Origin: a virus
IMG/VR virus record: IMGVR_UViG_3300048592_000081
Coordinates: 1-55,792 of that record
Strand: one strand, 5' to 3'
Length of the DNA: 55,792 nucleotides
In this document: piece after piece, positions 3,046 to 54,153 of the stretch
Position numbering within the stretch: the first letter of the stretch is position 1
Layout: every line of letters begins with the position of its first letter
The notes under the pieces: model-generated
Database searches by the model: none
What the model was told of the DNA's origin: nothing
Seen by the model: only the letters and a program-made list of their open reading frames with translations
Translations under genes and position numbers: made by a program

Positions 3046-3348
3046 TCAGTCTCTGACGACGATCTTGACTGGCGTGGTTGAGATGGGGTCGCCATCCGGC
3101 GACGTGGCTCGAACACTCAACTCGTACTCACCGAGTTCGAGCCCTTGCGTTTCTTCAGCACTCAAGCGCAGCCGGCCGACATTGACGAAACCGACGATCC
3201 ATTCAGTCTCCAGGTCAACGGGTGCGCAATTGCTGAACTTCATCGAAGCAGCAAGTCCCCAGCCCGTCATGTCGTACTGCACGCCATCCTCGGTGAACGT
3301 GACTCGAAGCACGAGCGCGTCTCCGCGACGCAGGTTGATGATGCTCAT
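3046..3348 (-). CDS. Small virion-associated protein, beta-rich
   Basis: 100 aa. The start was set at ATG 3348 (MSIINLRRGDALVLRVTF) because it lies directly after the stop of the endolysin-holin gene and is preceded by GAGAAGG; a longer reading back to 3441 would overlap that gene widely. The order of short strands (LVLRVTFTEDG, MTGWGLAASMKF, YELSVRATSPDG, PVKIVVRD) suggests a small immunoglobulin-like or BppU-like fold as found in fibre or baseplate accessory proteins. The fold call is inference. Confidence 0.6.
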   Translation of the reverse strand: MSIINLRRGDALVLRVTFTEDGVQYDMTGWGLAASMKFSNCAPVDLETEWIVGFVNVGRLRLSAEETQGLELGEYELSVRATSPDGDPISTTPVKIVVRD

Positions 3349-3349
3349 T

Positions 3350-3904
3350 TCACACCTTCTCCTGAGCCCGAATGTCGTCCTTCTGGCGTGATCCGAAAGA
3401 CGAACCCATCCAGAACTCACGCGCGCCAACGATTGTCGCAACGGCCGCGATCATGACGATGTTGTCCAAGGTCGATTCGGTGATCTTCCCGGCCCAGGCA
3501 AGCAGGCCGATGCTGGTCCAGGACGAAAAGATCAGCACCAACGTCAGGAACTCAATGAAGGTGAAGCGTCCAACGACGGTACGGACGTCCTGCATCTGAG
3601 CATTCTCGACCGCATAGCGGCGAGCACGATCGACACTTTCCTCGTGCGCCTCGAAGATGTCGAACCAATTGGCTTGTACAGCCTCACGAACGGCTTGCGC
3701 TGCCTGCGGATCTGCTGAGATGATCTCGGCAAGAGCCTGCTCGTTCTGCGCCCCCGTGGCCGCCTTTGCAACTTCCAAGACCTTCTCGACGGTCTGAGCT
3801 TGGCGTTCGGCCTTTTCCCCGTTTTTCCCCCACATTCGGACGAGATCAGGGACGACATTCAGCAATGCCGGAATGGCGAGTTTCGCAACGGGTGGCAGGG
3901 GCAT
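3350..3904 (-). CDS. Putative holin from internal in-frame start
   Basis: Inside the endolysin-holin gene, AAAGGAG lies six bases upstream of ATG 3904, an optimal ribosome binding site in the reading frame of the fusion (codon 204). The 184-aa product (MPLPPVAKLAIPALLNVVPD...) contains both predicted transmembrane segments and none of the GH19 domain. It would be a free holin made from the same message. The signal is seen directly; use of the start is inference. Confidence 0.6.
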   Translation of the reverse strand: MPLPPVAKLAIPALLNVVPDLVRMWGKNGEKAERQAQTVEKVLEVAKAATGAQNEQALAEIISADPQAAQAVREAVQANWFDIFEAHEESVDRARRYAVENAQMQDVRTVVGRFTFIEFLTLVLIFSSWTSIGLLAWAGKITESTLDNIVMIAAVATIVGAREFWMGSSFGSRQKDDIRAQEKV

Positions 3905-25934: not shown

Positions 25935-28900
25935 TCAGGCGAGCGCTTTCCCGAATTGGGCGAAATCGTAGGAGGATTTTAGCGAGTTCGCAAACGGCAC
26001 CTCTTTTTCAGGCTCTCGAACGAAGTCGTTCTTGTCCCACTCTGCAGCCCAGCCGGGCGGGTCTGCCCAATTCAGGTTCTCGACTCGCAGCAGTTCGGAC
26101 ACGCACAAGCCGATGCAGTAGTAGGACAAGTCCCATGCCTCGTTCCGCAGCCCAGCGGTGTTCTGCCAACCCTTGTCGGTGCGGGTCTCGGCGCAAAGCT
26201 CGGCGAACCATGAATCACTCATCCAGTCGGGGAAGCGGTACATCCCCTTACCCGGTTCAAGACAGTCGAGCCGACCATCGAGGTCGTCCTTGATCAAGTT
26301 CGAGTTGAGCATCAGCAACGGAATGTCGCCTCGCGCGCCCGACTTCATGTCCTTGCGCTGACTGTCAGGGTAGGTGATGCGGGTACGAGGATGGTTCGGC
26401 AGCGTGTCACCCTTCAGGAGAATGAAGCGACGATGCTTGTTGTCCTCTCGCAACTTGCGGTAGTACGAATAAGCCATTGAAGTCACGCCGGATCGACCGC
26501 CCGAGTCGCAACCGACGAATCGGATGCTCATGAGACGCCCCGACCCGTCGTCGAGTTCATATTCCTTCTCGATGACGTGTTCGGTGATCTCGTCCCAATC
26601 CTCAAGGTAGGTGTTCGGCTTCACCCACAGATGCTCACCGTCGTCATCGGTGCGCTTTGATTTCCGAATGTCGTAGCGATCCACAAGCACCATGTCAAAC
26701 TTGATGCCAGGAAGAATGCCGAAGACCTGTACGACGAACATATTCTTCTGAACGTCGATGACCGCCACGAGGAAGCGAACACCTTCCGGCACCTTGCGTT
26801 CGGCGAACTTCTCGGCTCGCGCCTTGAGCACTTCCGGCAATCGCGTGTCGTTCGCAGACTTCGGGTAGTAGGGCTCACCGAGGTCGTTGTTGTAGAACTT
26901 CTTTAACGCCTCTTCCGAGCCCGTGCGTTGGTACTCGTCGTTTGCGTTCAGGTAGTTCTCAACGAGGGCTCGCCACGACACGAACGCGGCGGCGACACCA
27001 CGAAGCCAAAAGGAAGCGATGCTCGTGCGAGGGGACGGCCCGAAGATCCGTCCATCCTTGTCGACCCCCTGGGTGTCCTTGACCCAAATGCCGAACATCT
27101 GCATGTCCTCCCGGTAGTCCGGGTGGATCTTCTCGCCGCAATGCGGGCAGACCATGCGAACCGTAGACGCCTTGTCCATGTTCGTCCCGGCAAGGTCGTT
27201 GTCCCATGTCAGGTGTGTGAACTTGCCCTCGAAGTATTGATCGCAGAACGGACAAGGCCAGAACCATCGGCGACGATCGCCGCGGTTGTAGAGCTTCAGG
27301 ATGCCTTCGCACGGAGGCGCCTCGTGTGGTGTCTGCGGAATCCACTTCGGGTTTGACACCTCGCGCGATGGCGACGACTCCGCGACCGTCATGGCGTATG
27401 AACCGAACGTCGTCGTTCGTTTCGACGCAAGGTCGAACGGCTCGCCGTCACCGTCGATGTCATCGGGCATGCGGTCGCGGTCGGTCAACACGATCCGGCC
27501 GATTGGTTTGCCTGCCAGTTGGCTCGGCGTCGGCCAGGAAAGTGTCAGCAGCATGCCCGACGTGTACTGTTTGTCGAATCGGTTGTCAGCGTCGGCAGTC
27601 GGCAGCAGCATCTCGCCCACTTCGGGCGTGTGGCGATGCAGTCGGTCAATACGACGGATGCCGAAGTCGCGCGCATCGAGCATCGTCGGACAAACCACCA
27701 TCATGTCCATCGGATCAACCTTGACCGAATAGAGAATGCCATTGATGATGAGCGAATCCGTGTTGTGGGTCGGGACCATCTGCCGTCCTGCCAAGAATAG
27801 ATGGCTCGGGGCGTCGACTTGAATGCAGCGAACCGGAACCGAATCGACAGGAGTTACGTTGACTATGCGGCGACGCCCTGTGTGTGTAGGTCGCTTTTTG
27901 ACTGTTCTGCTGCGCAACTTCAACATTTGCCGTTCAAGATTGAACGGTCTTTGCTCAGACGTAGGAGTCCAAGCGATCTTCCAGCTTTTCTGTCCTTGCT
28001 TCTTCTCACCTTTGTACGTGTAGGTTGGAACGCTCTCACGAACATGCGCCTTGATACCAAGGCCATTGCATAGTTGCAAATAACCGTCGCGCAAGCAGTC
28101 TTCGCTAGTTGAAAACTCAACAGTAATATTGTTTGCCACGCAACCATCGGTGTCATTCAACCCTCGAAGCAACTCCCATCTTTGTTCAATTGATGCGCGC
28201 TGATAAATCTGAGGAATGCGTTTGCTAACCGGCCATTCGGCGGTACTGAGAAGACCAATGCAATTTAAAGTTTTCCTAAACGTGTGAGTCAGTCTATTAG
28301 ATGGGTTCGGATCGATCGTCACCGTGTATGACGCCTGAGTCACGTCATGTTTTGATTCAACGACATAGCCTGCCGACTCAATTTTTTTCGTAATCGACGG
28401 CATATCCTCATCTCGTAGCGTGAGATAGTTTCCGTACGAATGTCCATCGCCGAGCCAAATGCCAAGCATGTACGGATCAATCGGAAGATCTATCTTCGGT
28501 AAGTCAAGAGCTTTTGCGTTTTTTATCGCGTATCTGTTCCTAATCTTGCGGTACTTGAAAGTCTTGGCAATTTCATCCGTGGTTAGAACACGAGCGCATT
28601 CACGAACGTCGTCGTCGCATAGCCATCGGTGTTCAGCATCGGCGACGATTGATGTCGCGTCGTCAAACACAACTCGATAGCACTGATGGTTGTGCATGAC
28701 CTCAGTTGCGAGTGTCACGCGAGTCGGCTTACCTTCGTCACTAAAAATGACATCCCCGACACGAAGATCTCCCATAGTCGTCCACCCTGACGGCGTAGCT
28801 ATCCGCGTTCTGATGTCGAGTGCTTTGGCCGACTGAGCTGGGCCGACGAAGATCATCCCCGTGTAGCGCCTTGAAATGAACGTGTCCATCGGCTCGACCA

Positions 28901-29087
28901 TGTACGGGACGGTCGAGTTCTTCCACTTGCCGACATAAGCGCCGGGCTGATTGATGTAGCGGTACTTCTCCGCAGCCTGAGAAACGCTGACGTTCTCAGG
29001 AGGCGTAAGCATCTGAGCGAGATCACGAATGATCTCGCCGACCGACTTATAGGTCTTCTTCGCTTTCGGTTTCCTGATGTTCGCCAT
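25935..29087 (-). CDS. Terminase large subunit (gpA family) containing an intein
   Basis: 1050 aa: 88 N-terminal extein residues, a 354-residue intein (89-442), then the remaining extein; the spliced protein would be 696 aa. Joined exteins read GPAQSAK-TDSLIIN, a gpA-type Walker A motif split by the intein between Lys and Thr. Further family marks are VLTDRDRMPDDIDGDGEPFD (Walker B region), two zinc-binding pairs (CPFC and CPHC), and VAVIDVQKNMFVVQVFG plus RFVGCDSGGRSGV of the nuclease domain. The enzyme cuts and translocates concatemeric DNA into proheads. It overlaps the small subunit gene by 41 bases. Without splicing the ATPase should be dead. Confidence 0.93.
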   Translation of the reverse strand: MANIRKPKAKKTYKSVGEIIRDLAQMLTPPENVSVSQAAEKYRYINQPGAYVGKWKNSTVPYMVEPMDTFISRRYTGMIFVGPAQSAKALDIRTRIATPSGWTTMGDLRVGDVIFSDEGKPTRVTLATEVMHNHQCYRVVFDDATSIVADAEHRWLCDDDVRECARVLTTDEIAKTFKYRKIRNRYAIKNAKALDLPKIDLPIDPYMLGIWLGDGHSYGNYLTLRDEDMPSITKKIESAGYVVESKHDVTQASYTVTIDPNPSNRLTHTFRKTLNCIGLLSTAEWPVSKRIPQIYQRASIEQRWELLRGLNDTDGCVANNITVEFSTSEDCLRDGYLQLCNGLGIKAHVRESVPTYTYKGEKKQGQKSWKIAWTPTSEQRPFNLERQMLKLRSRTVKKRPTHTGRRRIVNVTPVDSVPVRCIQVDAPSHLFLAGRQMVPTHNTDSLIINGILYSVKVDPMDMMVVCPTMLDARDFGIRRIDRLHRHTPEVGEMLLPTADADNRFDKQYTSGMLLTLSWPTPSQLAGKPIGRIVLTDRDRMPDDIDGDGEPFDLASKRTTTFGSYAMTVAESSPSREVSNPKWIPQTPHEAPPCEGILKLYNRGDRRRWFWPCPFCDQYFEGKFTHLTWDNDLAGTNMDKASTVRMVCPHCGEKIHPDYREDMQMFGIWVKDTQGVDKDGRIFGPSPRTSIASFWLRGVAAAFVSWRALVENYLNANDEYQRTGSEEALKKFYNNDLGEPYYPKSANDTRLPEVLKARAEKFAERKVPEGVRFLVAVIDVQKNMFVVQVFGILPGIKFDMVLVDRYDIRKSKRTDDDGEHLWVKPNTYLEDWDEITEHVIEKEYELDDGSGRLMSIRFVGCDSGGRSGVTSMAYSYYRKLREDNKHRRFILLKGDTLPNHPRTRITYPDSQRKDMKSGARGDIPLLMLNSNLIKDDLDGRLDCLEPGKGMYRFPDWMSDSWFAELCAETRTDKGWQNTAGLRNEAWDLSYYCIGLCVSELLRVENLNWADPPGWAAEWDKNDFVREPEKEVPFANSLKSSYDFAQFGKALA
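27762..28823 (-). mobile_element. Class 3 intein with LAGLIDADG homing endonuclease domain
   Basis: 354 residues in frame in the terminase. Residue 1 is Ala (ALDIRTRIATPSGW), not Cys or Ser. Block B contains AEHRW (His65, Trp67), block F contains VRCIQVD (Cys333), and the end is VPTHN followed by Thr (Thr352, His353, Asn354). Trp in block B, Cys in block F and Thr before the penultimate His form the WCT triplet that defines class 3 inteins, in which the block F Cys is the first nucleophile. Two LAGLIDADG motifs are present (GIWLGDG at 121-127 and RGLNDTDG at 220-227). The DNA is visibly AT-richer than the flanking gene, which fits recent acquisition. Confidence 0.9.
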
Positions 29088-29676
29088 ACCTGTTCTCGGG
29101 AGTCTTGAAGCGTTCCTCGATTCTCTTCACGGTTTCCTCAAGCATCCCGTGCGTGAGCCCCTTGATGATGCTGCGCTGTCGCTCGGTCAGTTCGGCATTC
29201 CGCTCGACACCATCGAGCATCAGCAGTGTCGACATCTTGATGATCTTGAAGACCTCGCTGACTTCCTCGATCACCTTCTCCGTTCGCCAAAGGATGCCGG
29301 CCTTTTCCTCGAAGTCCTGACGGCTTCGTTGCCCTGCCCAAAACTCCTTCGTCAAGTCCTTCGGCAAGTCCTTGTACGACATCTTCAGGATAGCCTGCTC
29401 AATGTCCTGGAACGGCTTGACGATGAATGGCGCTACGTCGGCAATGTGGTAGATGTCAGAACCGTTTCGCCTGCCTGACGGCTTGATGTTGTTCTCGAAT
29501 ATCTTCTTGCGGATCGTCCGGTAGTCGCTGCGGAAGATCACTTCAAGTTGAGCAATGTTGCAGCCTTGGAAGATCATCTCCCGGCTGGCATCGTCGACCG
29601 ACGCGCTACCTCGACCGACGTCGACCTTCTTAATCTCGGCCGAAGCGGTCACGACCGTCCCGCTGGCTCTAGCCAT
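29047..29676 (-). CDS. Terminase small subunit (DUF1441/Nu1-like)
   Basis: 209 aa from the second ATG (29676), which has AAGGA at better spacing than ATG 29682. The N-terminal part has a winged-helix-like unit (IAQLEVIFRSDYRTIRKKIFENNI then GSDIYHIADVAPFIV); the C-terminal part is a long helix with SEVFKIIKMSTLLMLDGVERNAELTERQ, as in DUF1441 small terminases. It would recognise the packaging site and load the large subunit, whose gene it overlaps. It ends ESEEDL. Confidence 0.7.
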   Translation of the reverse strand: MARASGTVVTASAEIKKVDVGRGSASVDDASREMIFQGCNIAQLEVIFRSDYRTIRKKIFENNIKPSGRRNGSDIYHIADVAPFIVKPFQDIEQAILKMSYKDLPKDLTKEFWAGQRSRQDFEEKAGILWRTEKVIEEVSEVFKIIKMSTLLMLDGVERNAELTERQRSIIKGLTHGMLEETVKRIEERFKTPENRYGEHQETESEEDL

Positions 29677-29878
29677 ACGCATGTTCCTTGATCAGCCTGT
29701 CGAGTGCGGGACGCGAGAGAAGCAGCAACGCTTCGATGTGGCGTGCGTGGTATCGCTGCAATGTCCTGCGTCCACTGCGGTACTGTGCGTAGGTCGGATA
29801 GGCGACACCGATCAGCCGGGCAGCATAGGTCGGACCTAGCCCGGTCGTCTTCTCGAAGTGAAGCAAAGCCTTGTTCAT
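29669..29878 (-). CDS. Small HTH-like protein at head of late operon
   Basis: 69 aa from ATG 29878; the frame is open further upstream but passes through the terminator hairpin. The sequence FEKTTGLGPTYAARLIGVAYPTYAQYRSGRRTLQRY resembles a short helix-turn-helix of the XRE/YdaS type, followed by a helical tail. It overlaps the small terminase gene by a few bases. It may regulate or assist packaging gene expression; this is inference from position. Confidence 0.55.
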   Translation of the reverse strand: MNKALLHFEKTTGLGPTYAARLIGVAYPTYAQYRSGRRTLQRYHARHIEALLLLSRPALDRLIKEHAYG

Positions 29879-32070: not shown

Positions 32071-32351
32071 TTCAAGATCGCCCTCGCCTGATCCAGATCA
32101 TCCACGCAGTAGACCTCGCACGCCTGCGCTCGCAAGAGTCGCGCCACGTAAGCCTGCTGTGCTCGCGCGTCCTCGTCCTTCCGCTTGACCTCGATCCAGA
32201 CATGCCTGCCGTCCCGCACGGCGTAGACGTCGGGCATGCCGCGACGCGACGGGCTCGTGATCTTGACGGCGAACCACCCTCGGATGTGCGCGAAGTCGAT
32301 GATGTCCGACTGAATGTCGGATTCGAGTTCTTTCGGTGGCTCGAATCTCAT
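32067..32351 (-). CDS. VRR-NUC domain nuclease
   Basis: 94 aa from ATG 32351, overlapping the polymerase stop (ATGA). The sequence has the VRR-NUC core: a first acidic residue in ELESDIQSDIIDFAHIRGWFAVKI, GMPDVYAV (catalytic Asp), and HVWIEVKRKD (Glu-x-Lys). Stand-alone VRR-NUC proteins in phages are thought to be structure-specific nucleases, acting on recombination or replication intermediates. The end DLDQARAILK lacks the acidic-Leu tail seen on some other proteins. Confidence 0.8.
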   Translation of the reverse strand: MRFEPPKELESDIQSDIIDFAHIRGWFAVKITSPSRRGMPDVYAVRDGRHVWIEVKRKDEDARAQQAYVARLLRAQACEVYCVDDLDQARAILK

Positions 32352-33394
32352 CTCATTTCCTTCTTGCACTTGCCGCACATGGCACGTCCCTCGGGTTGTT
32401 CGTCCGTTTCGATCCAGGAGTCACGGATGGACTCACGGCCCTTGCCGCACAGCGCAATGTCACGTTTGACGTCGACAACGTGGTAGGTCTTCTGATCGGG
32501 CAAGCGGGCGATGATCCGGCCGCTTCGGCCGCGAAGTCGCGGGTCGTCCGTCTTGGCGCCAACGTCCTGCAGGATGGCGTATGCCTCGCGGATGTAATGG
32601 TCGTAGTCAATGTCGTGCGGCACGTAGGGCAACAGTTCCATCATTGTCTTCGCTCCGATGGTCTGCGGGACACTGTTGCCGTTCTTCTTGTACTTGAAGC
32701 CGCCTCGGACGTCCTTGCTGTAGTACCAGCGCAGAGCTTTGCCGATCTCTATTCCATCCTGATCAACGGCACCGCCAGTGACACGACGAACGGTCAGGAA
32801 CTTGCGAGGGTCGGCACACCACTCGATCGTTTCCTCGATCGGCGTGCCGTGCTTCAGGTACTCGACGACAGCCTCGGTGCAGATGTCCATGTCGGGGTTC
32901 TTCTTGAGCCCCGCTGCTCCGGGTAGACCACGGCCGGATGCCGTGAAAGCGCCTTTCGTCTTGACCTTGCCGTCCTTGTCGATTGCCACGTAGCTGTTCA
33001 CGTCGCGGCTATGAAGCGAACGGTACTCGGTCTCTTCGAGGCTGAAGCCCGTGCGCCGCTCCCATTCCAAGCACGCCTGATTGAACTCATCGCGGCAATC
33101 CCGAGGAACCTTGGTGACAAAGCCGTCTGTGTTGGCACTGACGACATTGATCATTCGTTCTTCGAGTTCTTCGATCAACATGAGGATCGACAACTGCCCG
33201 GTCAGCGTTGTCTGGATCATCAGGTTCGGGCTGTAGAGCGCCGAGAATGGCGAGCCGAATTTACCGAATGAGCCGTTCAACGTCAGTTTAAGAGACTCCG
33301 CAGTGTTCTTAGCCTCCATTTGTTCGGCCTCAAGTTGAGCGAGTTCAACTTCTAGACGAGCAATCTCAGAGCGCAATGAATTTGCGTCGCGCAT
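32348..33394 (-). CDS. Family-B-like DNA polymerase, C-terminal (palm/thumb) fragment
   Basis: 348 aa, ATG 33394. It carries polymerase motif B (LKLTLNGSFGKFGSP) and motif C (VVSANTDGFV), then RDVNSYVAIDKDGKVKTKG and a thumb-like end with Cys pairs (MCGKCKKE). The DTD of usual motif C is NTD here. Motif A is in the separate N-terminal gene. A strong AGGAGG lies six bases upstream of the ATG, inside the HNH gene, and an in-frame TAG lies just before it, so this fragment is made as a separate chain. The two parts probably assemble into one active polymerase. Confidence 0.85.
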   Translation of the reverse strand: MRDANSLRSEIARLEVELAQLEAEQMEAKNTAESLKLTLNGSFGKFGSPFSALYSPNLMIQTTLTGQLSILMLIEELEERMINVVSANTDGFVTKVPRDCRDEFNQACLEWERRTGFSLEETEYRSLHSRDVNSYVAIDKDGKVKTKGAFTASGRGLPGAAGLKKNPDMDICTEAVVEYLKHGTPIEETIEWCADPRKFLTVRRVTGGAVDQDGIEIGKALRWYYSKDVRGGFKYKKNGNSVPQTIGAKTMMELLPYVPHDIDYDHYIREAYAILQDVGAKTDDPRLRGRSGRIIARLPDQKTYHVVDVKRDIALCGKGRESIRDSWIETDEQPEGRAMCGKCKKEMR

Positions 33395-34034
33395 CTCGTG
33401 CCTCCTCTAACGTCTGAAAGTAGCCTAAGTATTCACGGACACCATCTCTTGTTGCTCTGACAACAAAACCACCGTCTTTATGGGGAGTAATACCTCGCTC
33501 GCCAGTTGAAGACGAACACCAGACCGTTTCATTCGAGATCGCAGTTACCGCATCATCCCGATTCGCAAAGAACTTGCGCTCAAAATTATTACGAGCTTTG
33601 AACGCAAGTTCAGCAGAATCAAATCTTCCAATTCGATAACGCACATGCTCAAAGTCCATGCGAGCCTCAAATCTCCCCTTTATTTGAACAACTCCGGTGA
33701 ATCCACTTGTATTGTTCTTAAACTTCCTGCGGTTCAAACATTGTGTGGTTCTCGTCGCCCACTTGCAATTGGCAGGCGAATATCCCTTGTCATTGTCCAT
33801 GCGCTCAATAGTGAAATTTTCACTTGGGCGAGCACCCATGTCTTGCACAAATTTCTCAAAGTGTTTCCAGCGCGGTGCAACCTTAATTCCACGGCCACCG
33901 TAGTTCTCATAGCCGGGGAAGTTCGGATTTGTGCATCGCTGCCACATGCCCGACCAACAGTAGTACAAGGGGTGGTCTCTAGGCGCATAGCCCTCAATCG
34001 GCACGTTGCGCGGGTGGTAAGTTCGGTTTGGCAT
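33366..34034 (-). CDS. HNH homing endonuclease with AP2-like domains, inserted in DNA polymerase
   Basis: 222 aa from ATG 34034, with AAGGA six bases upstream; an in-frame TTG lies at 34040. The HNH part contains YCWSGMWQRCTNPNFPGYENYGGRGI, FTIERMDNDKGYSPANCKWAT and QCLNRRKF. AP2-like DNA-binding parts follow (NNTSGFTGVVQIKGRFEARM and later GERGITPHKDGGFVVRATRDG). Such genes copy themselves into cognate sites. The gene overlaps the polymerase N-terminal gene by 41 bases and the C-terminal gene by 29. It is AT-richer than its neighbours, as expected for a recent arrival. Confidence 0.9.
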   Translation of the reverse strand: MPNRTYHPRNVPIEGYAPRDHPLYYCWSGMWQRCTNPNFPGYENYGGRGIKVAPRWKHFEKFVQDMGARPSENFTIERMDNDKGYSPANCKWATRTTQCLNRRKFKNNTSGFTGVVQIKGRFEARMDFEHVRYRIGRFDSAELAFKARNNFERKFFANRDDAVTAISNETVWCSSSTGERGITPHKDGGFVVRATRDGVREYLGYFQTLEEARDARRKFIAL

Positions 34035-35175
34035 CTTCAATCCTTCGCAACTCGGCCTTCAAAGCGGCAATGCGCTTTTTCACTTCGTCAATCTTCTTCC
34101 CGATTGTACCGATACTCTTCTTCGCCGCGATGCGCCGGGCAAAAATGCGGCTGTAGATTTTCAGGAAGTGCGGGCCAATGTGCTTCGGGTACAACTCGCT
34201 CCGAAGAATGATCATCGGATAGTAGGAGGTCACGTCACGATCGAGAAGGACAAACTCATCGTCGCTGTAGTGACTGGATCGCGTCTCCGACGAATGCAAG
34301 CCTCCAATCCCCATGCGGTAAACCGAGCGCCCCATCTCAATCTTCAAGTCCTTCAGATAGTCGGGCATCTTGACGACGCCCGCCCGATCGACGACAAACT
34401 TGGTTCGACGAATGCCGTCGAGTACCTCGCGCATCGTCGGGGTCTGGAACTGAATGAAGTCCGGCACCTCGTAGTTGAAATAGCCGGGCTCGACGTCAGG
34501 CGCGTACAACTTTCGCCCCGTCGCCCGCTCGATCTCGGTCTTGATCACAGCCTCCGCGATCTGAGCGTCCGACTTGCTGCGCAGATCCACGCCGTACTCA
34601 ACGCTCATCATCGCGCGCAACTGCAACTGCGCCTTCAACTCGTCAAGCATGTCATGCGTCACATCCAGGTCGTTGCCGTGGTACGCGCGCAGCACCTCGA
34701 TCTTGTTCTCGTCAATGCGGTCATCCACCTCGATCGGCAGTTCCTGCATCTTCCGAGAGTGCATGCGGCCGGCGTAAATCTTCAAGCTCGGCATCTGCGG
34801 AGCACCGGGGCTCACGGACATGAGATCGATGCAATCGAAGAAGTCCGGGACCGTCAGCCCGAGCCTGTCGAGCATCGTCCACCAAGGCACTCCGTACTGA
34901 ATCAATTCATCGCTGGCACGCTTGAGTTCGCCGTTCGTGGCGCCACTCATCGCGTACAGGATCATCGGAATGTCGTAGGCTTTGAAGTTGAAGCCGACCA
35001 CGCGCCACTTGCGGAAGATCGTCGCAATACTCTTGCGGTCAAGCGGGCTGTCATTCCACTTCTCAAAGACGCGCACGCGACCGTCAGCGGCAGACTTGAA
35101 GCCGATTGACCAATAGTTGACGTAGCACTCCGTATCGCAGAGAGCAATGGGGCGGTCTTCGGTGTAGTTGTTCAT
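33994..35175 (-). CDS. Family-B-like DNA polymerase, N-terminal (exonuclease and motif A) fragment
   Basis: 393 aa from ATG 35175; ATG 35199 and GTG 35202 upstream fall in a hairpin. The proofreading exonuclease motif Exo I is ALCDTECYVNYW, with GFNFKAYDIPMILYAMSG as Exo II-like. Palm motif A is LLDRDVTSYYPMIIL. The chain ends in a helical stretch (KKIDEVKKRIAALKAELRRIED), which lines up in character with the first helix of the C-terminal fragment. The polymerase gene is therefore split in the loop between motifs A and B. Confidence 0.85.
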   Translation of the reverse strand: MNNYTEDRPIALCDTECYVNYWSIGFKSAADGRVRVFEKWNDSPLDRKSIATIFRKWRVVGFNFKAYDIPMILYAMSGATNGELKRASDELIQYGVPWWTMLDRLGLTVPDFFDCIDLMSVSPGAPQMPSLKIYAGRMHSRKMQELPIEVDDRIDENKIEVLRAYHGNDLDVTHDMLDELKAQLQLRAMMSVEYGVDLRSKSDAQIAEAVIKTEIERATGRKLYAPDVEPGYFNYEVPDFIQFQTPTMREVLDGIRRTKFVVDRAGVVKMPDYLKDLKIEMGRSVYRMGIGGLHSSETRSSHYSDDEFVLLDRDVTSYYPMIILRSELYPKHIGPHFLKIYSRIFARRIAAKKSIGTIGKKIDEVKKRIAALKAELRRIEDAKPNLPPAQRAD

Positions 35176-35187
35176 CGCCGAAACAAG

Positions 35188-35211
35188 AACGCCCGGCATC
35201 ACCCGGGCGTT
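35188..35211 (-). terminator. Perfect hairpin upstream of polymerase gene
   Basis: AACGCCCGG (35188-35196) and CCGGGCGTT (35203-35211) form a 9-bp perfect stem with a 6-base loop, followed on the minus strand by CTTGTTT. It lies between the DUF2815 stop (35244) and the polymerase ATG (35175). It may attenuate or terminate transcription or control polymerase translation. Confidence 0.5.
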
Positions 35212-35243: not shown

Positions 35244-35894
35244 TCACAGACCGTCGTCGTCATCGCGGTCCATGCCGTCACCGGCCGGGCCTTCACCGTC
35301 GTCCTCGTTGCTCCACGCATCACTGTCGTCGATGCGACCCTCACCGAACGGCTTGTCGTCGCGGATGAACTGCACGCCCACGAGGCCCGCGTTGAGCCGC
35401 TTCCCGTAGCCGGCACCGACCTTCTTCCCGTCCTGATACCACGGACGGATGAGGATGTGGCCCCAGCACCCACCGTAGATCATGTCGGCGATCTTCTCGG
35501 GCTCACTGACAAGCTCGCCACGCTTATTGCGCACGCTCGGCCGCCGTTCCTCGCGGGCCGAGACGATCCAGTGCCCACCGTAGGTGTCGGTCTTGTCGCT
35601 GTCGTCGCCATTGCGGCAGAACTTCTTGTCACTGCTCACCGTGGCGTTGTCGTTCTGCTTCAGCAGATCGTTCATCGCCTCAACGATCAGGTTCTTCGCC
35701 TCGACGTGCGTCTTCTTGGGCAGCATGCCGACGATGCCGTACTTCGGCTTCGCCTTGCTGTCCTCGTCACCACCCTTGCCGGCGTAAGGCTTGTCCAGGT
35801 GCGGGTACGAGAACCGGACGTTCTCGATCTTGATCATCCCGTTGGTGTACAGAATGGCGTTAGCAACGCGCTTCTTGATTTCCATCGTCGACAT
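35244..35894 (-). CDS. DUF2815-family ssDNA-binding-like protein
   Basis: 216 aa from ATG 35894, just after the DUF2800 stop and with GAGGA eight bases upstream inside that gene. KIENVRFSYPHLDKPYAGKGGDEDSKAKPKYGIVGMLPK and GWIVSAREERRPSV-like segments identify DUF2815, a family next to DUF2800 and polymerase in many phages and believed to be an OB-fold ssDNA-binding protein. The C-terminus is strongly acidic (GMDRDDDDGL), as in bacterial SSB tails. It probably coats ssDNA at the fork. Confidence 0.8.
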   Translation of the reverse strand: MSTMEIKKRVANAILYTNGMIKIENVRFSYPHLDKPYAGKGGDEDSKAKPKYGIVGMLPKKTHVEAKNLIVEAMNDLLKQNDNATVSSDKKFCRNGDDSDKTDTYGGHWIVSAREERRPSVRNKRGELVSEPEKIADMIYGGCWGHILIRPWYQDGKKVGAGYGKRLNAGLVGVQFIRDDKPFGEGRIDDSDAWSNEDDGEGPAGDGMDRDDDDGL

Positions 35895-35895
35895 T

Positions 35896-37221
35896 TCACA
35901 GATCCTCTTCGGTTTCACGGTCTTCGTCGTTCTCGAACACGAGAGCCGACACGTCTTCCACCGCTGGCCGCTTGTCGGAAAGCGGAACCAGGGTGGCTCT
36001 GCCCGGTGGCTTGAACGCCAGGTCGGACATGAGTTCCTTGATCTCGTCGGGCTTCTTGCCGGCCTTGCGCAGCCGCTTCTCGGCTTGGTTCGGCGAGATC
36101 ATCTTCGATTGGTACAGGTCATCGCGCGGCACGCCGACCGACACGAGCGCATCGGCTGCCTTGCTCTCGCTCATGAACTTGCGCTTGCTGCGGCCCTCGA
36201 CGAACTTCATTCCGGGAATGTGCTCGCCGTCCTTTCCGCGACGCATGAGTTCGTCATCCATCGCAGCCCACCACGCTTCTGCCATCCGGCGATACGGATG
36301 CAGGCGGGCCAGTTGAGCGGTCGTCAGGCTACCGGCCTGCGCCATGTGCATCTTGAACGGTTCGAGGTCGTCGTCAAGTCGCGCCACGAAGTCGCGCATC
36401 TGCTCGACGGTCTGCGTCTCGTCACTGAACACGCCGCTGATCAGATCCTCTTGAAGTTTGGCGTTTGCAGCGCACGTCGCGCGAACCTTGCAGAACCGAC
36501 ATTGCTTCGGTCCAGGTGTGCGCGGTGCATCGAGGCGCCACGCTGCAGCCATTCGCTCACGACAGTAGTCCTCGAACTCACGCAGCCGCCTTGCGGTCGT
36601 GTGCCACTCATCGAAGTGGTTCAACCGAGGCTGATTGATCCTAATGATGAAGTCGTCGAAGCCGTAGTGCTCGAACCGCGGATCGCGCCACAACCCGATG
36701 GCATAGAGCATCAGTTGCGGGTTCTCTTCGGCGTAGACGATGTTGTCCGGCGAAGCACCAAACTTGTGATCGCACACCGTAGCACGCCCGGGACGCAACG
36801 CAGCGAAGTCGAGCGTGCCGCCTTGATTCGGGATCGGGGTGAGGTGTGAGAAATCAACGTGCAACTCCACTACCTGTTCGCCGGGCTCCCACTCGCAACG
36901 GTCTACGCAGAGGCCCGCGTGGTACAGCATCTCCGAGTCGATCTCGATGAGGTGCCCGGTGTCGATGTCTCGGCCGACCCATCGCTTCGTGCCGAGGTAA
37001 TGGTCTGGTCGACGTCCGGTGTTGAGCCAGTCTTCGGTAACGGCGTGAGCGACAGTTCCCCATGCCGCGTCGAATCCGGCCTCGTCGTCGGCCAGAACAT
37101 TAGGCACAAGACTGCCACTGCAAGCCAAGTACATATGGCTCGAAGAAGCTCCAAAAATGGAATGCTCTCCACCGTCTTTCGCCTTAGCCAGTGCGTCGAG
37201 GTTGATGTGGTGCTCTGTCAT
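35896..37221 (-). CDS. DUF2800 nuclease (RecB/Cas4-like PD-(D/E)XK)
   Basis: 441 aa from ATG 37221; an in-frame ATG at 37263 would add 14 residues. HSIFGASSSHMYLACSGSL is the N-terminal signature of DUF2800. The nuclease core is GGTLDFAALRPGRATVCDHKFG (Asp, then Asp and Lys), and the Cys set in PKQCRFCKVRATCAA suggests an iron-sulphur cluster as in AddB/Cas4. It is probably a replication or recombination exonuclease. The end TEEDL carries GAGGA, which serves as ribosome binding site for the DUF2815 gene. Confidence 0.8.
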   Translation of the reverse strand: MTEHHINLDALAKAKDGGEHSIFGASSSHMYLACSGSLVPNVLADDEAGFDAAWGTVAHAVTEDWLNTGRRPDHYLGTKRWVGRDIDTGHLIEIDSEMLYHAGLCVDRCEWEPGEQVVELHVDFSHLTPIPNQGGTLDFAALRPGRATVCDHKFGASPDNIVYAEENPQLMLYAIGLWRDPRFEHYGFDDFIIRINQPRLNHFDEWHTTARRLREFEDYCRERMAAAWRLDAPRTPGPKQCRFCKVRATCAANAKLQEDLISGVFSDETQTVEQMRDFVARLDDDLEPFKMHMAQAGSLTTAQLARLHPYRRMAEAWWAAMDDELMRRGKDGEHIPGMKFVEGRSKRKFMSESKAADALVSVGVPRDDLYQSKMISPNQAEKRLRKAGKKPDEIKELMSDLAFKPPGRATLVPLSDKRPAVEDVSALVFENDEDRETEEDL

Positions 37222-37299
37222 TTCGGTGATGAGGCGACCGCCGCTAGGCAGACACTCCGACATGAACCACCCGCATTGCGAGCCGCCCCATCACCGAAA

Positions 37300-48970: not shown

Positions 48971-49200
48971 ACTCAAAGAATGTCCGCGGAATCACCTTGC
49001 ACTACGAGGATGACACGTCCGAGACCCATCTACTCGTCAAGCCGAGCCCCGCGTTCCATGACGAGTTCAACGAACTGCGGCCACTCGTTGCTGCCGCCAA
49101 GAAACGTAAGGCCGAGAAAATGAATGACGACCCTTGGACAATTCGGCTTATCGTTGCCGCCATTCTTCTCACGATCGCACTCGTCCTTGTGACGCTTTGA
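48967..49200 (+). CDS. Tail-anchored small membrane protein
   Basis: 77 aa, ATG 48967 overlapping the upstream stop (ATGA). The soluble N-terminal part (GITLHYEDDTSETHLLVKPSPAFHDEF) is followed by a lysine-rich stretch and a C-terminal transmembrane helix (IRLIVAAILLTIALVLVTL). The topology is probably N-in with a C-terminal anchor. Function unknown. Confidence 0.65.
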   Translation: MNSKNVRGITLHYEDDTSETHLLVKPSPAFHDEFNELRPLVAAAKKRKAEKMNDDPWTIRLIVAAILLTIALVLVTL

Positions 49201-49210
49201 GGGACAACCA

Positions 49211-50173
49211 ATGACAACCAACCCGTACAAGAACTTCATCCCGTACCTCGTCAGTTCGGACGCCAAGACGGACGACCTGGATCTCGATCTCCATCGATCC
49301 AAGGAGCCGTCAGGCGGCCAGTGGCGCAGCATCGGACTGATCAATGCGCTGCCGGGCGAAGGTCTTCTCGTCGACCTGAGCGACGCCGGTAAGTTGATGG
49401 CGGTCCGCTTCAATGAACGCATCTTGCCCGGCAAGGTGCGAGACGAACACCTAGGCAAGCGTGTCGCCAAACTCGAACAGATGGAAGGGCGCAAGCTCTC
49501 GAAGAAGGAGTACGCGCAACTCCGCGAAGAGATCGAGTTCGACTTGCTGCCTCGCGCGTTCATCCGACGAACCGTCGTTCCGGTCATCTTCACCAAGATC
49601 GGTACGTCCGATCACCTGATGATGGTCTGCACATCCTCGCAGAAGCGTGCCGACGACGTGGTTGCCGTGTTGACTGCAGTCTTCGGCGAGACTCTGAAGC
49701 CATGGAAGATTGAAATGGGCAGGCCGATCGCCGGGAGTCTGACGACACTGGCTTGCGACGGCTTCCTTTTCAACGAGCACACGCAAGAGGAATGCTCGTT
49801 CTATCCGACCGACGCAGCCGTGCTCAAGGGCAGTGGCAAGAAGACCATTCGCATCAAGGACAAGGACATCCAAGAGCACGATGTTCAGACCCTCCTGAAG
49901 CAGTCCTACGCAGTCACGGAACTGGCCTTGCGGTATGGCGAGGATGAGGACGTTCCCACGCTCACCTTCACCGTGAATGACAACTTCGTATTCAAGCGTG
50001 TGACCCTGCCCGACGTCCAAGTGACGCCGCTCAAGGAGGACGCATTCGGGTTCGCCCTGTTGTGCGTTCAGACCTACTTCAGAATGATCAAAGACATCGT
50101 TGCGGCATTCGGCGGAATGGCGCAACGCCAGAAGCCTTCAACTGAGACTGTTGACGAGGACGACGAACTGTGA
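49211..50173 (+). CDS. rdgC: RdgC-like recombination-associated protein
   Basis: 320 aa, ATG 49211. The signature of RdgC is present: SIGLINALPGEGLLVDLSDAGKLMAVRFNERILPGKV, a KRVAKLEQMEGRKLSKKEYAQLREEI segment and FDLLPRAFIRR, followed by TSSQKRADDVVAVLTAVFG. RdgC forms a ring on DNA and limits RecA action in bacteria, so a phage copy may steer recombination during replication. Length is near that of bacterial RdgC. It ends with the acidic tail TVDEDDEL, encoded by the junction cassette that starts the next gene. Confidence 0.85.
   Translation: MTTNPYKNFIPYLVSSDAKTDDLDLDLHRSKEPSGGQWRSIGLINALPGEGLLVDLSDAGKLMAVRFNERILPGKVRDEHLGKRVAKLEQMEGRKLSKKEYAQLREEIEFDLLPRAFIRRTVVPVIFTKIGTSDHLMMVCTSSQKRADDVVAVLTAVFGETLKPWKIEMGRPIAGSLTTLACDGFLFNEHTQEECSFYPTDAAVLKGSGKKTIRIKDKDIQEHDVQTLLKQSYAVTELALRYGEDEDVPTLTFTVNDNFVFKRVTLPDVQVTPLKEDAFGFALLCVQTYFRMIKDIVAAFGGMAQRQKPSTETVDEDDEL
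50156..50173 (+). promoter_or_regulatory. Gene-junction cassette, copy 1
   Basis: GAGGACGACGAACTGTGA encodes EDDEL-stop of the RdgC-like gene. GAGGA lies nine bases before GTG 50170, which overlaps the TGA, so the same bases act as ribosome binding site and start of the next gene. Confidence 0.75.
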
Positions 50174-50439
50174 ACACCATGACCGACAAGAACAAGATCG
50201 TCGTGCGGATCAACCACAAGTACATCGATCCGAAGATCCCGCTCGACGGTCAGGTGGATTGGCTGTACCTCCGACTCAGGCTTGAAGGCGTGCCGATGGA
50301 CCGCGAGAAGTTCTACAACATATCTTTGCCGCTGAAGCACCGCTTTGCGGTCACACACGGTCGGCTCGAATGGTCAACTGAAGCCACGGCCGACCGTGGA
50401 ACAGAAACGGTGTTCACATGGCTGGATCAGCAGCAGTGA
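50170..50439 (+). CDS. Small hypothetical protein
   Basis: 89 aa from GTG 50170 (in the junction cassette); ATG 50179 is a possible alternative. VVRINHKYIDPKIPLDGQVDWLYLRLRLEGVPMDREKF is followed by a beta-rich ending, FTWLDQQQ. No domain recognised. Its stop overlaps GTG 50436. Confidence 0.6.
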   Translation: MNTMTDKNKIVVRINHKYIDPKIPLDGQVDWLYLRLRLEGVPMDREKFYNISLPLKHRFAVTHGRLEWSTEATADRGTETVFTWLDQQQ

Positions 50440-50633
50440 TCACCGCCAAGCCCGGCGAGCCGGACTACGCCAAGCAGCAGTGGAGCGTTTGGCAGCAGGG
50501 CGCCACGGCCGCCCGAGAAGGCAAGAAGGCGTCAGACAACCCTCATCCTCCGCTGCGCTATGAGTACGTCTCGTGGCACAACGGATGGGCCGCAGCAACC
50601 CATCAGATAGCCAAAGAGGACGACGAACTGTGA
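50436..50633 (+). CDS. RMF/CrpP-like small protein
   Basis: 65 aa from GTG 50436, which overlaps the previous TGA; ATG 50418 in frame would add six residues. WQQGATAAREGKKASDNPH followed by YEYVSWHNGWAAATHQIA fits the ribosome modulation factor/CrpP-like pattern of G-x-x-A-A-x-x-G, then NP, then W-x-x-G-W. RMF dimerises ribosomes; phage relatives are common and their role is not settled. The C-terminus is KEDDEL from the junction cassette. Confidence 0.65.
   Translation: MITAKPGEPDYAKQQWSVWQQGATAAREGKKASDNPHPPLRYEYVSWHNGWAAATHQIAKEDDEL
50616..50633 (+). promoter_or_regulatory. Gene-junction cassette, copy 2
   Basis: GAGGACGACGAACTGTGA, identical to copy 1, ends the RMF-like gene and supplies GAGGA and GTG 50630 to the next gene. 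Confidence 0.75.
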
Positions 50634-51078: not shown

Positions 51079-51323
51079 AGACGCTCACCTCGCTCTCTCC
51101 CGAGATCATCGAAGGTGCGCGCGGTCCATGCCGGGCGCACAGTGGTCTTGCCGTTGCGCTGCAGTACGGAGGCCACGACGTCATCGTGATGGGCGGGAGC
51201 CGAGCCGCCTTGGCTGAGATCGTCCATCAACTCAATCCGAATCTCTCGATCAACCCGGCCGGTGTCTACCCCGTGACACTGATCCACGACCACTACGTCA
51301 TCCGCAAGGATGGAGACCTATGA
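51075..51323 (+). CDS. Small hypothetical protein
   Basis: 82 aa, ATG 51075. LAVALQYGGHDVIVMGGSRAALAEIVHQLNPN looks like a Rossmann-type beta-alpha unit; it ends VIRKDGDL. The last codons contain GGAG and the ATG of the next gene. Confidence 0.6.
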   Translation: MKTLTSLSPEIIEGARGPCRAHSGLAVALQYGGHDVIVMGGSRAALAEIVHQLNPNLSINPAGVYPVTLIHDHYVIRKDGDL

Positions 51324-51553
51324 CGACAATCCGCGTCAAGTTCGAGCGCAAAGTGCTCGAAGCGATCAACCACGACGTTCATATCAACAACACCGTCATT
51401 CGCAAGTTGACGGCAGAAGGCATTCCCGTCGAGGGTGGCCTTTGGCTGCGCAGCGTGAAGCACGGCCGACTCTGCGTCTTCAACGAAGGCCCGCGGATCG
51501 TGTACGAGTGGACACCTGGGTCCGACTCACCGGATGAGGATGACGAACTGTGA
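51320..51553 (+). CDS. Small hypothetical protein
   Basis: 77 aa, ATG 51320 overlapping the upstream stop. TTIRVKFERKVLEAINHDVHINNTVIRKLTAEGIPVEGGLWL and a strand-rich second half, ending PDEDDEL from the junction cassette. A small alpha/beta protein of unknown role. Confidence 0.6.
   Translation: MTTIRVKFERKVLEAINHDVHINNTVIRKLTAEGIPVEGGLWLRSVKHGRLCVFNEGPRIVYEWTPGSDSPDEDDEL
51536..51553 (+). promoter_or_regulatory. Gene-junction cassette, copy 3
   Basis: GAGGATGACGAACTGTGA, one synonymous change from copies 1 and 2, supplies GAGGA and GTG 51550 to the exonuclease gene. Confidence 0.75.
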
Positions 51554-52155
51554 ACGACTTCAGCATCGATCTTGAGACCCTGCATACCCGCTACAACGCG
51601 GCAATCCTGAGCATCGCCTGTGTGCAGTTCGACATTGCAACCGGCAATCTTGGCAAAGAGTTTTACGTCGAGGTCGAGTTCAACTCGGCCATCAAGGCAG
51701 GTAAGGTCAGCGGTAGAACCTTGGCTTGGTGGGCGCTACAGAGTGACAAGGCCCGCCGCATCTTCTCGGACAGCGCGAATAAGCAACCGTTGCCCGTCGC
51801 TCTCGACAATCTGCGGACATTCCTGTTGAAGACGTGCGAACGGCCGAAAGACATGCGGGTGTGGGGCAACGGGGCCACGTTCGACATCACGATCCTTGAG
51901 CATGCCTACGACAACGGGGCTGTTGGTTTGCCTGAGCCCTGGGCTTACTGGAATGTCCGCGACATGCGGACACTGATCGACGTCGCTGGCTTGGACAAAA
52001 GCGAGTTCCCGCCACGCGAAGGCGTGCATCACAACGCACTGGACGATGCCCGCTATCAGGCTCGCGTGATGAGCGTGGCATGGCAGCGTGTCCGCGGCAA
52101 GCCGGCCACCAAGGGGAAAGTCAGCCCGGTCAAGGTTGAGGACGACGAGTTGTGA
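51550..52155 (+). CDS. DnaQ-like 3'-5' exonuclease
   Basis: 201 aa from GTG 51550. DEDDh motifs are visible: SIDLET (Exo I) near the N-terminus, GNGATFDITIL (Exo II) and HHNALDDARYQA (Exo III). The pattern is nearest to the exonuclease VIII/Rv2179c-like phage family. It probably trims DNA or RNA ends during recombination or nucleotide recycling. The end VKVEDDEL is coded by a junction cassette. Confidence 0.85.
   Translation: MNDFSIDLETLHTRYNAAILSIACVQFDIATGNLGKEFYVEVEFNSAIKAGKVSGRTLAWWALQSDKARRIFSDSANKQPLPVALDNLRTFLLKTCERPKDMRVWGNGATFDITILEHAYDNGAVGLPEPWAYWNVRDMRTLIDVAGLDKSEFPPREGVHHNALDDARYQARVMSVAWQRVRGKPATKGKVSPVKVEDDEL
52138..52155 (+). promoter_or_regulatory. Gene-junction cassette, copy 4
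   Basis: GAGGACGACGAGTTGTGA encodes EDDEL with two synonymous changes (GAG, TTG) and supplies GAGGA and GTG 52152 to the next gene. Confidence 0.75.
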
Positions 52156-52991: not shown

Positions 52992-52994
52992 CCC

Positions 52995-53516
52995 ATGTTC
53001 GACTTCTTGTCTGCCCCCAAGGCACGCACCCTCCTTCTGCGTCAACTCGAAGCGGCAGAGCGCGATCGCGTCAAGCACATCACCGCCGCCGAAGAGCATA
53101 CGGCTTGGGTCGCCATGTTGGAGATCCGCATCGCGCGCATTCGTTCCGAACTCGGTTCCTCTGTGCCCGTCCAAGCCGGCGAGCACGAACTGCCCCAACC
53201 CTTCACCCCCCCAGGAGATCGCATGAGCGACATGAATACAGGCGACGTATGTCGCCGTCTCGGCGTCAACGTCAGCAGCGAACTGCTGTCGAGCCTCGGA
53301 ATCGAACCGGCCGAACGGAACCGTCGGGCCTTCCTCTACAGCGAGGCGCAGTGGCCAACGATCTGCAAGGCTGTGAGCCGCTACGTCGCCAGCCGGATTG
53401 ACGCTCCCACGCCGCCGCGACCGGCGAAGCCCGAGAAGGCGTCGAAGGTCAAGCCGACTTCCGGTTCCACCGACACCAAATCCATGTTCAACGACGAGGA
53501 CGACGATGAACTCTGA
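52995..53516 (+). CDS. Coiled-coil protein with acidic tail; possible two-start gene
   Basis: 173 aa, ATG 52995. The N-terminal part is helical (LLLRQLEAAERDRVKHITAAEEHTAWVAMLEIRIARI). In frame, AGGAG lies five bases before ATG 53223, so a 97-aa product (MSDMNTGDVCRRLGVNVSSELLSSLG...) may also be made. The C-terminal domain resembles small phage DNA-associated proteins. The end NDEDDDEL is encoded by the longest junction cassette. Confidence 0.65.
   Translation: MFDFLSAPKARTLLLRQLEAAERDRVKHITAAEEHTAWVAMLEIRIARIRSELGSSVPVQAGEHELPQPFTPPGDRMSDMNTGDVCRRLGVNVSSELLSSLGIEPAERNRRAFLYSEAQWPTICKAVSRYVASRIDAPTPPRPAKPEKASKVKPTSGSTDTKSMFNDEDDDEL
53496..53516 (+). promoter_or_regulatory. Gene-junction cassette, variant copy 5
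   Basis: GAGGACGACGATGAACTCTGA encodes EDDDEL-stop. Here the next gene starts at ATG 53506 inside the cassette, five bases after GAGGA. Confidence 0.7.
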
Positions 53517-54153
53517 AACTACTCCGAGCGCCGTGTTCGTGCGTCAGGTCTTCCATGTGACGCGAGACGGCATCACCGAACAGAAGGATGTCCCCATTCG
53601 GCTCACCGAGGACATGCGGTTTGCCATCAACGTCCCCGACTACGTGTCGAACACGATCAACGTCAGCAGCGAACTGTACGGTGACAGCGCGAACGACGTG
53701 CTCAACAAGTACGAGGAAGTGTGCGACGACTACGCACGGTGGAAGCTCGGCTCCGAGAGCAAGCCGATGCTCCGACTGCGCGTGGCCTTCTCGCCGATCG
53801 ATGGCGGCGTGAAACTTCACGGCATTGCCGCCATTGCTGGCATGGGCCTGATGCCCGTGTGGGTCGTCGACAAGAAGGATGCCGGGACGTTCGTCTTCAA
53901 GCGGGAAGGCGACAGCCTGGGTCATCGGACAGAGATCGACCCGACCTCCGATGTGCTGCTCGCAGACACCCCGGAGATCCGCCAGAAGATCGAGGTGCTG
54001 ACCAACACGATCACCGTGGCTTCCGACATTCTCGCCCTCGTGCCGCGGGCAAGCGATCCCGCTGCCTACATCATGGCGATCGAGACCGACCTGAGCAAGA
54101 CCAAGCCGGTGCAAGCCGACACTTCCCCTGTCGTCGAAGACGACGATCTGTGA
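53506..54153 (+). CDS. Hypothetical protein with acidic tail
   Basis: 215 aa from ATG 53506, inside the junction cassette. DYVSNTINVSSELYGDSANDVLNKYEEVCDDYARWKLGSESKPMLRLRVAFSP, then GMGLMPVWVVDKKDAGTFVFKREGDSLGHRTEIDPTSD, suggest a mixed alpha/beta protein. It ends SPVVEDDDL, although the next gene has its own AAGGAG and does not need the overlap. No family recognised. Confidence 0.65.
   Translation: MNSETTPSAVFVRQVFHVTRDGITEQKDVPIRLTEDMRFAINVPDYVSNTINVSSELYGDSANDVLNKYEEVCDDYARWKLGSESKPMLRLRVAFSPIDGGVKLHGIAAIAGMGLMPVWVVDKKDAGTFVFKREGDSLGHRTEIDPTSDVLLADTPEIRQKIEVLTNTITVASDILALVPRASDPAAYIMAIETDLSKTKPVQADTSPVVEDDDL

Follow-up and report, generated by a model that had tools for sequence, protein, structure and literature searches.

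How does a phage make a working packaging ATPase when 354 extra residues separate the Lys and Thr of its Walker A motif? This is the question raised by the large terminase gene of a 55.8-kb IMG/VR virus contig (IMGVR_UViG_3300048592_000081), whose full 55,792 nucleotides are the window analysed here. Our answer is that the extra residues are almost certainly a full-length class 3 intein, probably competent to splice, placed at the Walker A Lys/Thr junction in the gpA-type large terminase of a Chi-like phage.

The terminase precursor, terL, is a 1050-aa open reading frame with an ATG start on the minus strand (25935–29087). Both gpA domains are present, with Pfam matches to GpA_ATPase (PF05876, 1e-58) and GpA_nuclease (PF20454, 4.6e-61), and the ATPase profile matches in two parts, positions 3–41 and then 41–247, with the break falling at the insert. 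The N-extein consists of residues 1–88 (28824–29087, minus strand) and ends in the Walker A Lys of GPAQSAK, while the C-extein (25935–27761, minus strand, stop codon included) starts at the Walker A Thr, TDSLIING, and carries the remainder of the ATPase and the nuclease domain. Between them, translation of 27762–28823 on the minus strand gives a stop-free insert that runs from ALDIRT to VPTHN, and its length of 354 residues, its initial Ala and its coordinates are all as given in a preliminary description of this DNA. Removing the insert in silico leaves a 696-aa protein whose K88/T89 junction shows no gap in an alignment with the intein-free terminases of Pectobacterium phage MA11, Pseudomonas phage UF_RH7 and Aeromonas phage phiWae15, to which it is 61–62% identical. 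This alignment and the split ATPase match bear out the earlier placement of the insertion exactly between Lys and Thr of the gpA-type P-loop.

An assembly error was considered as the source of the insert and ruled out, because a second contig (IMGVR 3300048839_000286), with a single mismatch across 10,498 bp, carries an identical intein. Searches for other kinds of element gave little: Rfam over the whole window found no RNA family and no recognized group I intron, ARAGORN found no tRNA, and NCBIfam returned nothing beyond weak matches to intein-bearing radical SAM models.

The class of the intein can be read from its splicing residues, for which we compared 169 sequences, namely this intein plus 168 relatives drawn from IMG/VR, phage records and GTDB genomes. 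Class 3 inteins are defined by a WCT triplet, Trp at B12, Cys at F4 and Thr at G5 (PMC5050341), and they have no conserved Cys or Ser nucleophile at residue 1. Here these are Trp67 (28623–28625), the block F nucleophile Cys333 (27825–27827) and Thr352, which precedes the penultimate His353 and the cyclizing Asn354 (together 27762–27770). In addition, block B provides His65 (28629–28631), the base of a proposed Cys-His-Thr triad; all of these codons lie on the minus strand. His65, Trp67, Cys333, Thr352 and Asn354 are invariant in 169/169, and His353 is kept in 167. Chance is excluded, because five splicing residues are invariant across all 169 sequences. Most of the rows came from two alignment-based scans whose seeds contained neither Trp67 nor Cys333, so the invariance of these two residues was not imposed there; Trp67 did fall within one of the six seeds used for the initial scan, which started from a single sequence, and the conservation of the PTHN end motif is partly imposed, since it lay within a seed of all three scans.

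Residue 1 of the intein and the +1 residue of the C-extein behave differently from each other. Residue 1 varies (138 Ala, 18 Pro, 6 Cys, 4 Leu, 2 Gly and 1 His), and in our intein it is Ala. At +1, all 169 have Ser or Thr, Thr in this case; Cys is often written at +1 in published mechanisms (PMC4031507, PMC5050341).

The nearest solved sequences point the same way. The best PDB sequence matches are the class 3 DnaB inteins 6rix (2.9e-31), 6riy and 6bs8, in alignments that span the two splicing halves, whereas the class 1 gp41-1 intein matches far more weakly (9.8e-6). The sequence matches thus support a shared ancestry with the known class 3 inteins. Together with the triplet, which was found where the preliminary description had placed it, and with the lack of conservation at residue 1, they sustain the earlier assignment to class 3. 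We give very little credence to the alternative identities, namely class 1, class 2 and a bacterial intein-like (BIL) domain. Ala1 is typical of class 2 as well, and the fold is one common to all Hint domains, but the complete WCT with His65, invariant throughout the lineage, speaks against them. Class 2 in particular consists entirely of KlbA orthologues, which have Cys at +1 and Ser at G6 (PMC4031507), where this intein has Thr and His, and, unlike BIL domains, the insert lies in frame within a conserved protein and is followed by a +1 nucleophile. We therefore rejected the class 2 and BIL identities on WCT, Thr+1 and His353.

Within this class 3 lineage, six inteins out of 169 combine Cys at residue 1 with the full WCT, for example L039, L065, L080 and that of Acidovorax phage ACF1 (L013), and these may stand midway between the chemistries of class 1 and class 3.

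An AlphaFold2 model of the class 3 intein, built with 31 aligned relatives (pLDDT 93.2, pTM 0.91), combines a horseshoe-shaped Hint splicing domain with a LAGLIDADG domain. It matches PI-SceI along its entire length (3.4e-17) and the class 3 mini-inteins 6bs8 and 6rix with target-normalized TM scores of 0.80–0.87. The LAGLIDADG homing-endonuclease domain (approximately 27924–28511, minus strand) is matched by Pfam LAGLIDADG_3 (PF14528, 6.9e-7) and Hom_end (3.2e-4), which upholds the domain proposed earlier. Both motif acids, D126 (28446–28448) and D226 (28146–28148, both minus strand), are present, so this domain may be able to cut DNA.

From the chemistry described for other class 3 inteins (PMC4031507, PMC7664689), we propose that once the precursor has been translated, Cys333 would attack the Lys88-Ala1 peptide bond, with His65 and Thr352 activating it and Trp67 beside it. 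The N-extein would then be transferred to Thr+1, Asn354 would cyclize and the exteins would join, which should yield a terminase of 696 aa whose P-loop is intact and a free 354-aa intein. The freed LAGLIDADG endonuclease would cut intein-less terminase genes of co-infecting relatives, and repair would copy the intein in. What we infer from these features is that the intein splices, cuts and homes, and that packaging depends on splicing. The last of these inferences follows soundly from the insertion site: ATP-driven packaging should need splicing, because the unspliced precursor has 354 residues between the Lys and Thr of Walker A. The terminase is a clean test case for whether splicing rate limits packaging.

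Could the intein instead be dead or slow, with the terminase supplied in some other way or the contig derived from a defective phage? The sample is one contig plus one near-identical contig, and splicing of this protein is predicted from sequence, both of which leave some room for that idea. However, the catalytic residues and the reading frame are all intact, and relatives that have no endonuclease still keep the splicing residues. Moreover, the whole record contains a single pair of gpA matches, so that without splicing the Walker A motif would stay split by 354 residues in what is apparently the only terminase gene. We consider a dead or slow intein highly improbable, and a splicing-competent one remains our reading.

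The same codon in related viruses provides a view of how the intein may have come and gone. An extein scan of IMG/VR gave 70 gpA loci, of which three are occupied (L178, from the same virus, L184 and L213) and 67 are empty. Among the empty ones are L179–L181, whose terminases are 79–82% identical to this one. At the same codon, L184, with an extein 79% identical to ours, has a mini-intein of 133 aa, and the insert of L213 is a 231-aa remnant that no longer has the LAGLIDADG motifs; H-W, C and THN are retained in each. Other inteins of the family show smaller losses: a motif acid is replaced in L005 (D126G) and in ACF1 (D126N), and part of the endonuclease domain is missing in L006. The intein also differs in base composition from its host gene, with a GC content of 49.4% against 58.1% for the extein and a GC3 of 51.7% against 75.7%, and this foreign composition suggests that it arrived recently.

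Empty sites, decayed endonucleases and mini-inteins form the pattern predicted by the homing-cycle model. The empty sites, the decay series and the base composition fit a recent arrival by homing, after which the endonuclease is lost while selection maintains splicing, with the direction and timing of gain and decay being our reading of the series. Related phages thus offer empty, full, acid-mutated, decayed and mini states of a single site, a natural set that should be useful for testing homing-cycle models. The L184 intein, at about 3259–3657 of its contig and with WCT, is shorter than the solved class 3 mini-inteins (139–146 aa), and its 133 residues may offer a compact class 3 splicing tool.

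These data also bear on whether the intein is kept for the benefit of the phage, for instance as a packaging switch under redox control through Cys333, rather than as a merely selfish element. There is precedent in the class 3 DnaB intein of Mycobacterium smegmatis, reported as an oxidative-stress sensor (PMC6195587), and the splicing residues are kept even in the 133-aa mini-intein at the same site. On the other hand, the site is usually empty in close relatives (67 of the 70 gpA loci in the extein scan), and the need to keep splicing an intein that sits in a P-loop accounts for the conservation without any benefit. We regard a switch as unlikely. The broader version of this idea, in which gpA P-loop inteins are domesticated, condition-sensitive packaging brakes held at one codon across the gpA terminases of very different phages, seems to us equally doubtful.

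How widespread is this lineage? The preliminary description called class 3 inteins rare, which is overstated for phages: we confirmed at least 590 relatives in IMG/VR and at least 571 in GTDB genomes, counted as members of the lineage rather than individually typed as class 3, and these numbers make the lineage common. Lys precedes the intein and Ser or Thr follows it in 148 of the 169 relatives. Many of these lie in P-loops of various kinds of terminase or of actinobacterial DnaB, the hosts other than gpA being named from flanking motifs rather than by family search. As for the suggested search of phage terminases for the same insertion site, 34 gpA-type rows have the intein at the identical codon position. 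Phe, Tyr or Ala precedes the intein in seven of these 34 (KSARVGY/T in L045, for example), consistent with the Walker A motif of lambda-type gpA, in which the Lys is displaced. On a quick intein tree of 96 rows, the gpA label requires 2 changes compared with 26.3 when shuffled, and the gpA-site inteins fall into one main lineage plus ACF1 with L038, although the deep forks of this tree are weak.

Both the chemistry and the kind of site are known from other systems. The Mycobacterium DnaB inteins MchDnaB1 (6rix) and MsmDnaBi1 (6bs8) share with ours the WCT, the His65/Trp67 numbering and the THN end. In MchDnaB1, Cys124, His65 and Thr143 form the proposed catalytic triad and Trp67 is the W of WCT (PMC7664689). 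Related bacterial DnaB copies use a P-loop GK/S site, much as here, but the solved DnaB inteins are mini-inteins of 139–145 residues in a helicase, whereas this one has a LAGLIDADG domain and a terminase host. Closer in function, the mycobacteriophage TerL1-a intein splits the same Walker A Lys/Thr pair in a large terminase, though of the terminase_1 family rather than gpA; the available text of PMC5050341, from which this is taken, assigns TerL1-c, -d and -e of mycobacteriophages to class 3 and leaves the class of TerL1-a unstated. Class 3 inteins have been proposed to originate in phages (Tori and Perler, 2011, as cited in PMC4031507).

The nearest counterparts are other gpA P-loop inteins, with the same host family, codon and WCT and 34–48% identity to this intein; they occur in IMG/VR contigs, in bacterial genomes such as Methylobacter marinus (L108) and in ACF1 (MZ547449). 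The ACF1 intein has Cys at residue 1 and Asn in place of D126, and its gene is annotated merely as 'terminase large subunit'. Thus, class 3 inteins and terminase P-loop K/T sites were already known, and unlabeled gpA cases were already in databases. In the literature that we searched, we found neither a description of an intein in a gpA-type terminase host nor a paper linking an Acidovorax phage with an intein. What the present locus contributes is a class 3 lineage in gpA-type terminases, well beyond the mycobacteriophages in which phage class 3 inteins have mainly been described.

The virus itself is probably near the Chi-like, Casjensviridae-related phages, judging by how the genes near the large terminase are ordered and by the best matches. 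For the terminase these are MA11 and UF_RH7 (Casjensviridae), and Salmonella phage Chi is among the capsid matches.

Two further features of the record deserve mention. The DNA polymerase gene (32348–35202, minus strand) is in two halves, which match positions 45–396 and 395–656 of the 663 in phrog_1252 and are separated by about 0.8 kb containing an HNH endonuclease open reading frame (33366–34040). Rfam gave no intron match over this insert, even with a relaxed threshold, so the split may reflect either an unrecognized intron or a polymerase made as two pieces.

Secondly, an acidic tail of the DEDDEL/EEDL type ends at least eight different proteins, among them the small terminase, a PD-(D/E)XK protein, an RdgC-like protein and an Rv2179c-like exoribonuclease. 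The open reading frames with this tail lie at 29047–29682, 35244–35918 and 35896–37263 on the minus strand and at 49193–50173 (the RdgC-family protein, Pfam PF04381, 1.3e-33), 50382–50633, 51218–51553, 51544–52155, 52992–53516 and 53377–54153 on the plus strand. Among these proteins, the single-stranded DNA-binding protein has a looser version, DDDDGL. Equally acidic six-residue stretches make up 0.16% of background, and the distant relative phiWae15 has many tails of this type too. The tail may be a common peptide by which early and replication proteins are docked or sorted.
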